This document shows positions 16,436 through 45,471 of a stretch of DNA of 64,000 nt, one piece after another (the stretch's first letter is position 1; every line of letters begins with the position of its first letter). A program made the translations under genes and the position numbers. The DNA is from Sphingobium boeckii (GTDB lineage Bacteria > Pseudomonadota > Alphaproteobacteria > Sphingomonadales > Sphingomonadaceae): positions 1 to 64,000 of the forward strand of contig NZ_JACIJC010000001.1 of assembly GCF_014199215.1 (NCBI RefSeq). The letters run 5' to 3'. The notes below the pieces were generated by a model. The model had not been told where the DNA came from and made no database searches. It was given only the letters and a program-made list of their open reading frames with translations.

Positions 16436-16525
16436 CGTCATGCTGAACTTGTTTCAGCATCTATTCGTCCGCCCGCACATGGGTCGCGACTTTGAAATGG
16501 ACCCTGAAACGAGTTCAGGGTGACG
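16436..16525. repeat. Dispersed paired-hairpin repeat, family B
   Basis: A left unit (16436-16465, beginning CGTCATGCTGAACTTG and running into TTTCAGCATC) and an inverted right unit (16496-16525, ending CAGGGTGACG) are separated by 30 bp. Each unit is itself a small hairpin. The stem bases TG...CA on the left become CC...GG on the right, so pairing is preserved. The repeat lies between the convergent ends of the GST and ubiG genes. Its outer ends CGTCAY...RTCYAT match those of the repeats flanking the GIY-YIG gene. Confidence 0.7.
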
Positions 16526-43221: not shown

Positions 43222-43425
43222 ATGCCCAAACTGAAGACCAAGAGCGGGGTCAAGAAGCGATTCAAGATCACCGCCACCGGCAAGGTGAAGCACGGCGTAG
43301 CCGGCAAGCGTCACCGTCTGTCGCATCACAATGCCAAGTACATCCGCCAGAACCGCGGCACCAGCGTGCTTTCCGAGGCCGATTGGGGCCATGTGAAGCT
43401 CTGGGCGCCCTACGGCCTGCGTTGA
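43222..43425 (+). CDS. rpmI: Ribosomal protein bL35
   Basis: This 67-residue, very basic ribosomal protein starts [33 protein letters not shown] and contains the [15 protein letters not shown] stretch. The 50S subunit protein is nearly invariant in length. It has a GAGGAG site 8 bp upstream and is followed 11 bp on by rplT, forming the usual L35-L20 pair. Confidence 0.98.
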
Positions 43426-43436
43426 GGAGATACTGA

Positions 43437-43802
43437 ATGGCACGCGTCAAACGTGGTGTAACCACCAAAGCAAAACATAAGCGGATTCTGGATCAGGCGA
43501 AGGGCTTTTACGGCCGTCGCAAGAACACCATCCGTATCGCCCGTCAGGCTGTCGAAAAGGCCGGACAATATGCGTATCGCGACCGCAAGGTTAAGAAGCG
43601 CACGTTCCGTGGCCTGTGGATCCAGCGCATCAATGCGGCTGTCCGCATGGAAGACCTGACCTATTCGCAGTTCATGAACGGCGTGAAGCTGGCGGGGATC
43701 GAACTCGATCGGAAGGTCATGGCGGATCTCGCCATGAACGAACCGGCGGCGTTCAGCGTCATCATCGCTCAGGTGAAGGCGGCTCTCCCCAAGGCCGCCT
43801 AA
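43437..43802 (+). CDS. rplT: Ribosomal protein bL20
   Basis: This 121-residue protein binds 23S rRNA early in 50S assembly ([57 protein letters not shown]...[23 protein letters not shown]). In many bacteria L20 represses its own message. A strong rho-independent terminator 25 bp downstream ends the unit, so pheS is separate. Confidence 0.98.
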
Positions 43803-43827
43803 ACCGGCCTGAGTGAGCGTTCTAAAG

Positions 43828-43866
43828 GGGCGCGGATGGTGAAAGCCATCCGCGCCCTTTGCTTTT
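43828..43866 (+). terminator. Rho-independent terminator after rplT
   Basis: GGGCGCGGATGG (43828-43839) pairs with CCATCCGCGCCC (43846-43857) around a 6-base loop, followed by TTTGCTTTT. A perfect 12-bp stem and a T-rich tail. Confidence 0.9.
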
Positions 43867-43872
43867 GATGCT

Positions 43873-43902
43873 CCGTCATTCCCGCGCAGGCGGGAATCCA
43901 TA
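43873..43902 (+). repeat. Left hairpin repeat of the GIY-YIG unit
   Basis: 30 bp beginning CCGTCATTCCCGCG and ending GGAATCCATA, with a stem ATTCCCGC / GCGGGAAT. It matches the inverse of the right unit (44353-44382) at 27 of 30 positions. One stem pair differs (T-A here, C-G there), a compensatory change. Confidence 0.85.
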
Positions 43903-43949
43903 CGCGCCTGTGCTAGCAGAACGGTCCGGGGGCGTTCGAAGGGGCAGAA

Positions 43950-44264
43950 ATGAAAGAGCGCGAACCTTGTGTCTACATTCTTTCCAATGGAAAGCATGGA
44001 ACACTTTATGCGGGCGTCACTTCCGATTTGATCGCCCGGCTTTATCAGCATCGGACCGGCTTGATCAAAGGGTTCACAAGCCGCTACGGCGTTGCACGAC
44101 TGGTTTATTTCGAGCGCTTCGAGGATATGCCCTCGGCGATCCTGCGCGAGAAGCAGCTTAAAAAGTGGAATCGCTCTTGGAAGATCAATCTGATCGAAGA
44201 AAATAATCCGGAATGGCTTGATCTGGCGATCGATCTCGGTTTCGAGCGCGTGAAAGCACGATAA
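43950..44264 (+). CDS. GIY-YIG nuclease family protein
   Basis: This 104-residue protein is a stand-alone GIY-YIG domain. The motif pair appears as VYIL (residues 8-11) and YAG (20-22). The catalytic Arg30 (LIARLYQH) and Glu67 (AILREKQLKKWNR) are present, with R45 and the FTSRYG strand. All the residues I expect for DNA cleavage seem intact. Short proteins of this kind (UPF0213-like) are common, but their role is unclear. This one sits between rplT and pheS and is flanked by 30-bp inverted hairpin repeats, so it looks like an inserted unit. Upstream 43903-43949 has no strong ribosome site. Confidence 0.9.
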   Translation: MKEREPCVYILSNGKHGTLYAGVTSDLIARLYQHRTGLIKGFTSRYGVARLVYFERFEDMPSAILREKQLKKWNRSWKINLIEENNPEWLDLAIDLGFERVKAR

Positions 44265-44352
44265 GATTTGGTCCCAGTTCGTCAAAACTCGCTCAGACGG
44301 AAATCATCCGCAGCAGCGAATATATTGATGAATATTTCCGGACCGTTGAGTT

Positions 44353-44382
44353 TATGGATCCCCGCCTTCGCGGGGATGACGG
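44353..44382 (-). repeat. Right hairpin repeat of the GIY-YIG unit
   Basis: 30 bp inverted to the left unit, reading TATGGATCCCCGCC...GGGGATGACGG on the plus strand, with a stem ATCCCCGC / GCGGGGAT and loop CTTC or GAAG. It ends 12 bp before the pheS start, so it lies in the pheS leader. With the left unit it brackets a 510-bp segment (43873-44382). Confidence 0.85.
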
Positions 44383-44394
44383 AATAGGCGTAGA

Positions 44395-45471
44395 ATGACC
44401 GATCTGACCAATTTGCAAGCCGAACTGATGGCGACGATCGCCGGTGCGACGACCACCGAAGCGATTGAGGATGTTCGCGTGAAGGCGCTGGGCAAGCAGG
44501 GCGCGATCACCGCGCTGCTGAAATCGCTGGGCGGGATGACGCCGGAGCAACGGCTGAGCGAAGGGCCGAAGATTCACGCGCTCCGCGAAGCGGTGACCCA
44601 GGCCATTGGCGATCGCAAGGCGGGTCTTGAACGCGCTGCGCTGGATGCGAAGCTGGCCGGGGAAACGCTGGACATGACGCTGCCGCCGCCGGCTGCCGTG
44701 CAGGGCAGCGTCCATCCCGTTTCGCAGGTGATGGACGAACTGGCGGAAATCTTCGCGGATCTCGGCTTCTCCGTGGCCACCGGGCCGGAGATCGAGGACG
44801 ATTGGCATAATTTCACCGCGCTCAATATTCCCGAGACGCATCCCGCGCGCGCGATGCACGATACTTTCTATTTCCCCGATGAGGTAGATGGAAAGAAGAT
44901 GCTTTTGCGCACGCACACGTCTCCGGTTCAGATTCGCACGATGATGAGCCAGGACGCGCCGATCCGCATCATCGCGCCGGGCCGCGTTTACCGTTCGGAT
45001 TCGGATGCGACGCACACGCCGATGTTTCACCAGATCGAAGGCCTGGTGGTCGATCGCGGCATCCATATGGGGCACCTCAAATGGACGCTGGAAACCTTTC
45101 TCAAGGCGTTTTTCGAGCGTGACGACATCGTGCTCCGTCTGCGCCCCAGCTATTTCCCCTTCACCGAACCCTCGGTGGAAATCGACATCGGCTACACGAT
45201 CGAAAAGGGCCGCCGCGTGCTCGGCGGTTCGGATGGATGGCTCGAAGTGCTGGGCAGCGGGATGGTGCATCCCAAGGTGATCGAAAATTGCGGGCTCGAT
45301 CCCAAAGAGTGGCAGGGCTTCGCCTTCGGAACAGGCATCGACCGTCTCGCCATGCTCAAATACGGCATGGACGATCTGCGCCCCTTCTTTGACGGCGATC
45401 TACGCTGGCTGCGCCATTATGGCTTCGCAGCGCTCGACATACCCACGCTGAGCGGAGGAGTCGGCGCATGA
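44395..45471 (+). CDS. pheS: Phenylalanine-tRNA ligase alpha subunit
   Basis: This 358-residue class II catalytic subunit has an N-terminal coiled coil ([36 protein letters not shown]), then [38 protein letters not shown], the class II motif 2 ([31 protein letters not shown]) and motif 3 ([18 protein letters not shown]). It charges tRNA-Phe with PheT. The stop overlaps pheT by ATGA. No clear ribosome site precedes the ATG because the right hairpin repeat sits close to it. Confidence 0.98.

Follow-up and report, generated by a model that had tools for sequence, protein, structure and literature searches.

A class of repetitive extragenic palindromes (REPs) carries a CGTC tag and, as far as the accessible part of its description goes, has no dedicated transposase (Di Nocera et al., 2013; PMC3733652). 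In the same source, dRS3 of Neisseria appears as a member of the CGTC-1 group. We consider here a locus of Sphingobium boeckii, found in the first 64,000 nucleotides of contig NZ_JACIJC010000001.1 (assembly GCF_014199215.1), a stretch termed the window. Between rplT and pheS, two inverted CGTC-tagged hairpins bracket a gene coding for a small GIY-YIG protein. Small GIY-YIG proteins that cut single-stranded DNA (ssDNA) at a repeat of their own genome, named Ssn, are said to have been described in 2025 in Nature Communications, first in Neisseria. The reading that we favour, and hold to be rather probable, is that of a dedicated nuclease-repeat pair, with a cognate hairpin nuclease and a population of repeats akin to REP doublets forming hairpins (REPINs). 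Judging from the sequences compared below, the enzyme very probably recognises the CGTC hairpins that bracket its gene; that it also spreads the repeats is a real possibility, if not quite the likelier one.

The unit between rplT and pheS

The interval between the two genes holds a unit of 510 bp, made of a hairpin, a GIY-YIG gene and an inverted hairpin (Table 1). Its arms (43872-43902 and 44353-44383) are 31 nt long and 90% complementary (28/31). A first-pass annotation of this DNA had described a complete GIY-YIG gene between two 30-bp inverted hairpin repeats, and over that shorter span its count of 27 matches out of 30 was found again. Each arm folds by itself into an 8-bp stem and a 4-nt loop, with the CGTC tag on the 5' side. 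As ssDNA, the tagged strands reach -8.9 and -9.7 kcal/mol, values equalled by 1 of 200 shuffled sequences each, and the opposite strands -8.7 and -9.5 kcal/mol (7 and 2 of 200 shuffles being as good). The window contains exactly two copies of this hairpin family, when shuffled sequence would yield 0.01. Both show the traits given for CGTC REPs: an unpaired tag, a stem of 8-9 bp opening with A-T pairs, a loop of 4-5 nt and a CCA tail. An Rfam scan of positions 43400-44800 at E<=1 returned two matches only, both far under their gathering scores. A terminator role for the hairpins of the unit was considered and rejected, the terminator scan calling only the hairpin of rplT. That rplT has a terminator of its own had already been proposed, and, on reading by eye, a similar hairpin occupies that position in the congeners that lack the unit.

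Table 1. Features of the rplT-pheS interval and its borders, with positions in the window
Feature	Position	Strand	Basis
rplT, left neighbour	43437..43802	+	ORF (open reading frame) and neighbour comparison
Intrinsic terminator of rplT, upstream border of the unit	43825..43860	+	terminator scan; similar hairpin in congeners, by eye
Upstream CGTC-tagged REP hairpin: CGTC, 8-bp stem, GCAG loop, CCA tail; tag outward	43874..43900	+	
GIY-YIG nuclease gene, 104 aa	43950..44264	+	PF01541 match, invariant residues, structure model
Downstream CGTC-tagged REP hairpin, inverted: stem pair C-G for T-A, GAAG loop, CCA tail	44355..44381	-	
pheS, right neighbour; start 14 bp past the downstream hairpin core	44395..45471	+	

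The reading frame between the hairpins is complete and its product matches PF01541 with 54 bits (cut-off 22.6). This is the only family found between the REPs, where no HUH tyrosine transposase of the kind that marks REP-associated tyrosine transposases (RAYT/REPtron) was seen. An alignment of 31 sequences (out of 36 rows first given, one dropped for stops and four others left out) has 17 invariant columns, including Y9, Y20, R30, H34 and E67; among them are the Arg30 and Glu67 that the first-pass annotation had named as catalytic. By its domain and its catalytic Tyr, Arg, His and Glu residues the protein is a member of the GIY-YIG superfamily, and it is predicted to cleave DNA in a metal-dependent manner. 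The AlphaFold model has a mean predicted local distance difference test (pLDDT) score of 92.6. Its best matches in the PDB are two UPF0213 proteins, followed by N-terminal domains of UvrC and by Slx1, the first with E 0.0013 and none at E<=0.001. The best structure hits, 1zg2, 1ywl and 1yd6, are also found by sequence (E 0.0026, 0.049 and 0.11). UPF0213/YhbQ-like and UvrC N-terminal domains have the same fold as the window protein, with weak sequence similarity to it. A library of defence systems gave no match with the window protein, and neither did NCBIfam; the paralogue of L004 matched the defence library weakly, with UzuA (E 1.4e-4) and PDC-S14 (0.009). Relatives in phages were limited to proteins about 33% identical, in 9 Rhizobium phage records.

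Nuclease relatives and their hairpins

Relatives of the nuclease were gathered from the best 80 of 127 confirmed loci, in records titled Proteobacteria, Bacteroidetes, Dependentiae, Margulisiibacteriota, Zixiibacteriota and others, many of them metagenome-assembled genomes for which some labels may be wrong. Enough flanking DNA was present in 73 of the 80. A GTC-tagged hairpin with its tag outward lies within 250 bp upstream of the gene in 52 of these 73 loci, downstream in 45 and on both sides in 32. The opposite orientation is found 17 times upstream and 18 times downstream, and control windows have a hairpin in 43 cases out of 2664. Because REPs favour intergenic DNA, the comparison was also made gap by gap within the same loci, leaving out those with more than 50 N. 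A hairpin is present in 78 of 106 gaps adjoining the nuclease, and in 4 of 149 other gaps (mean lengths 285 and 195 nt, respectively), the nearest one having its tag outward in 46/58 upstream and 38/51 downstream cases. A plain inverted-repeat alignment of the flanks placed 21 of 76 loci above the 99% level, a figure that is not relied on, its null having contained N runs and its flanks having been trimmed.

The same association is visible closer to home. Among 59 Sphingomonadales genomes, 37 have a nuclease match and 22 have none at E<=1e-8. Flanks were usable for 89 of 95 genes, matches in genomes G011, G014 and G031 standing outside the comparison. The 83 close relatives (34 genomes) have a hairpin upstream in 45 cases, downstream in 43, on both sides in 29 and on either side in 59. 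Controls gave 0/6 for remote GIY-YIG genes, which differ in this from the window type, and 5/686 for windows around rplT. It had been admitted at the outset that the link between nuclease and repeat would be fortuitous if close relatives all carried the gene here without hairpins, or if the repeats fell at random relative to GIY-YIG genes; the counts just given go the other way on both points. One might still suppose that generic REPs, acting as terminators or as messenger RNA stabilisers, gather downstream of genes and flank a small gene by chance. REPs are indeed mostly intergenic and downstream of genes, according to the accessible part of their description (PMC3733652). The contrast between the two sets of gaps, a hairpin type that tracks the nuclease clade and a terminator call restricted, among the hairpins here, to that of rplT make such a coincidence very improbable.

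Hairpin types were compared as well. Three nuclease/hairpin pairings coexist in this genome, of the window CCCGCG/CCA type, of the TGAACTTG type and of the CCGG-CTTG type. One paralogue (63% identity) has CGTC-ACCCTGAA-CTTGT-TTCAGGGT-CCA hairpins on both sides. The third type, in three near-identical copies, is surrounded by CGTC-ATCCCGGA-CTTGA-TCCGGGAT-CCC and CGTC-ACCCCGGG-CTTGA-CCCGGGGT-CCC hairpins. On the nuclease tree, labelled for the 102 of 144 rows with a classed hairpin, hairpin type changes 20 times, as compared with 45.7 +/- 1.9 times after shuffling (0 of 300 shuffles as low), and 17 of the 18 TGAACTTG-type genes fall in one group of 18 rows. Sorting on the tree is imperfect. Nuclease and hairpin distances are correlated in a real but modest way (Mantel rho 0.246, 0 of 2000 permutations, for 52 of the 59 genes with a hairpin, the rest having stops or being short). 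The edit distance is 1.79 between the upstream and downstream hairpins of a single gene (n=29) and 9.05 between hairpins of different genes in one genome (n=20 comparisons). For genes with a paralogue, hairpins were compared with those of own-genome paralogues and with those of the closest nuclease of another genome; the latter are the more similar in 29 cases out of 38 and the less similar in 8. From genome to genome, hairpin type goes with the nuclease more closely than with the host.

Apart from this set, the suf genes on plasmid AZO_p3 of Azospirillum lipoferum have a relative (L251) between sufB and sufC, flanked at both ends by hairpin dimers. Some remote GIY-YIG genes deserve a word as well. 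One of them has inverted copies of an unrelated palindrome, CCCTCGACTNCGCTCGGGA, at its two ends, and a GIY-YIG gene of genome G005 likewise has this palindrome to its left and right (positions concerned: L002 1412-1831, on contig C5 of the Sphingobium boeckii genome at about 338.5 kb, and L240 534-1020). Of 8 further remote GIY-YIG loci, L001 and L243 have one copy each and the others none; the background amounts to 5 copies over 398 kb of DNA from other loci, with 2 in the window (14224 and 40875). This is possibly a further pairing of nuclease and repeat, in a small sample.

Repeat populations and signs of movement of the units

The genome (4.03 Mb) has 115 copies of the window hairpin at up to 3 mismatches, and none of a reversed control pattern. 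Stem pair, tail and pairing were analysed on the 100 copies listed. The variable stem pair is T-A in 57 of them, C-G in 35, C-A in 4, T-G in 1 and G-A in 3, with covariation of the two positions (Fisher p 9e-21 for the T-A, C-G, C-A and T-G classes). As 92 of 100 copies have T-A or C-G, it is pairing that is kept, not sequence; this extends to the copies listed what had been noticed from the two hairpins of the window. Close pairs, within 130 bp, are (+,-) with tags outward in 35 cases out of 35, involving 70 copies, and no pair of another orientation was found within that distance; spacing is 61 in 16 of the 35. The genome therefore has the many copies, mostly in head-to-head dimers, that characterise the CGTC REP superfamily. 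Across the 59 Sphingomonadales genomes, those with a CCCGC-flanked nuclease hold a median of 19.5 copies (n=14) vs 1 for the others (n=45; p 7.5e-5), to which the flanking copies themselves add a few; this comparison and the drawn tree used a set of rows with some misplaced gene ends and one broken gene counted twice.

Tails are less uniform, with CCC in 66 and CCA in 30 of the 100 copies, the window pair having CCA. When 13 dimers of this family are read out, the inner ends are CCATAC... in two, as in the window unit, and CCAG...CTGG in two. In the remaining nine, one side or both end in GCTT...AAGC, in most cases as CCCGCTT...AAGCGGG, which is the tail of the hairpins of the third, CTTG-type nuclease, at the inner end of that unit; hence part of the 115 copies may belong to another nuclease. 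The tail of the REP, and not the stem alone, may set specificity. The second family, of the TGAACTTG type, has 66 copies at up to 2 mismatches, and the third, of the CTTG type, 7, six of which lie within its three units. Nineteen TGAACTTG-type dimers, selected because the genome listing showed a pair, measure 85-91 bp, their spacers being related, and the paralogue's own unit starts with such a dimer. The window itself has, at 16437-16524, a head-to-head dimer of this type, which goes with the paralogous nuclease encoded at G000:C2:106646 (G000 being this genome). Palindromes with a GTC tag at both ends are found at 2 perfect and 4 one-mismatch sites of the genome (e.g. G000:C4:566936 and G000:C5:130727). 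The same form is seen at L255 (about 1134). These palindromes look like deletion products of two inverted REPs, left perhaps by slippage or perhaps by the nuclease.

What of the units themselves? In three congeners, rplT and pheS are separated by 116 nt with no unit, and in a fourth the site contains a hairpin, a nuclease with 65% identity and a hairpin. The first-pass annotation had seen the 510 bp as an addition between the two genes and had advised aligning this region in relatives. Its presence does vary among congeners. Outside the genus, a relative occupies this place in four genera of the family (G010, G015, G026 and G034), truncated in one case and devoid of a hairpin, by the rule used, in two. 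Ten of the 80 loci above are flanked by rplT and pheS, so that the window unit looks like an old resident rather than a recent insertion. The rplT-pheS copies do not make one clade in the drawn tree (8 label changes, few forks supported), and this may reflect either old residence with losses or repeated arrival. The exact junction could not be located at rplT-pheS, the 40-50 nt that follow the terminator being unalignable between congeners, and the empty sites have diverged too far from the window copy for the ends of an insertion to be judged.

Other units show signs of movement. Some Sphingobium plasmids carry a third-type unit between fnrL and a response regulator, and others lack it. At that site Sphingobium TYG64 has just one palindrome, tagged with CGTC at either end, TYG74 has a decayed one and two more relatives have neither; the double-tagged form fits what a deletion between two inverted hairpins would leave. 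A Shinella plasmid is without a unit that two other plasmids carry at one site. In the genome under study, the CTTG-type unit occupies three places (L005, L007 and L008, on contigs C5, C4 and C7) with a shared segment of about 460 bp. A frameshifting insertion of 2 bp is common to two of the copies, which suggests that the gene was already broken when it was duplicated. All this could evoke a conventional insertion element, with hairpins as terminal inverted repeats cut by an encoded transposase. Presence or absence among related plasmids and congeners, and three near-identical copies with two sharing a frameshift, would suit it. Yet the three copies extend past the hairpins by about 25 and 46 bp, so that the hairpins are not the ends that moved; no target duplication was seen, and double-tagged and decayed palindromes at the Sphingobium site fit deletion rather than clean excision. 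Furthermore, GIY-YIG enzymes are hydrolytic nucleases. The insertion element is thus improbable: units move or are lost, and the hairpins are at most putative ends.

The idea of a dedicated nuclease-repeat pair has to face several observations that weigh against it, and the displaced borders and the absence of any observed target duplication are among them. With the rule used, 24 of the 83 close relatives have no hairpin on either side within 250 bp, and 3 of 7 loci from annotated records (L249, L250 and L253) have no GTC hairpin near the gene. Six genomes have at least 20 copies with no CCCGC-flanked nuclease detected (in one of them, G034, the hairpins lie just outside the rule); in G043, where 60 copies were counted, the search at E<=1e-8 returned no nuclease. 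As the CCC tail is found on two thirds of the CCCGC copies here, it may be only a minority that the window gene serves. Finally, the site of the window unit is common to several genera and this copy looks stationary.

A probable nuclease-repeat pair beside known systems

The dedicated pair that we nevertheless prefer would work as follows. A one-domain GIY-YIG endonuclease would recognise the CGTC-tagged hairpin on either side of its gene, most likely as ssDNA, at replication forks or during DNA uptake, and would cut at or beside the tag. The bracketed gene would be the autonomous core, and the scattered hairpin dimers with outward tags its dependents, as a REPIN-like population. Hairpin type differs between nuclease lineages, which lets several pairings coexist in one genome and provide a natural specificity panel for single-strand nucleases. 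A tentative and somewhat doubtful extension would make CGTC REPs a second REPIN-like world, run by GIY-YIG nucleases in place of HUH transposases, each clade replicating its own dimers via ssDNA cutting, with three pairings in parallel here.

Another view is that the system serves the host. Repeats would be marks, and the nuclease would cut hairpins in ssDNA that is taken up or exposed, tuning natural transformation or recombination, much as is reported for the Ssn/NTS pair of Neisseria. In Neisseria gonorrhoeae, a gene unannotated in its record and 62% identical to the window gene over 92 aa sits among 16 CGTC-type (dRS3-type) hairpins in 4.3 kb; it may be SsnA. Relatives found at rplT-pheS in several genera would also agree with a host function. 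Against this, distribution is patchy, three of four congeners having no unit at the site and 22 of 59 genomes giving no match at E<=1e-8, and the occurrence of several pairs in one genome, together with the copying of a broken gene, is easier to reconcile with selfish turnover. We consider a host-serving role unlikely. The window protein would resemble Ssn, as reportedly described, in being a small GIY-YIG protein with its own repeated genomic target, and site-specific cutting of ssDNA is predicted for it. If the Ssn work does cover cutting, the locus adds a tie with CGTC REPs across lineages, a clade-by-clade matching and REPIN-like dimers; that tie, with its matched pairs, is the part worth following.

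Literature searches, made at the level of listings with partial journal coverage, returned no paper joining GIY-YIG enzymes to REPs. By word search in the accessible text, GIY, nuclease and transposase are absent from a 2025 survey of REPs (PMC12306157), and GIY is absent from PMC6006769. Some comparisons can be drawn. A free-standing homing endonuclease cuts alleles that lack the element; here the gene has a hairpin on either side and further copies are dispersed over the genome, a pattern that does not point to a target in empty sites. RAYT/REP systems and REPINs, in what could be consulted of their descriptions, have as here one gene between inverted REPs and dispersed inverted dimers with near-fixed spacing (PMC3733652; PMC8049555). 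The early comparison with a REP/RAYT unit having a nuclease in place of the transposase was apt for the layout; enzyme class and tag differ, RAYT/REP having an HUH tyrosine transposase and a GTAG tag where this locus has a GIY-YIG nuclease and CGTC. The closest likeness is with the CGTC REPs, which, in the accessible part of their description, share with the window repeats the CGTC tag, an 8-bp stem opening with A-T/T-A, a 4-nt loop and the CCA tail, and are likewise mostly head-to-head dimers with an alphaproteobacterial centre (PMC3733652). That account reports them as having no enzyme, whereas here a GIY-YIG nuclease gene is their regular partner, and a class said to have none would thus be supplied with a candidate enzyme.
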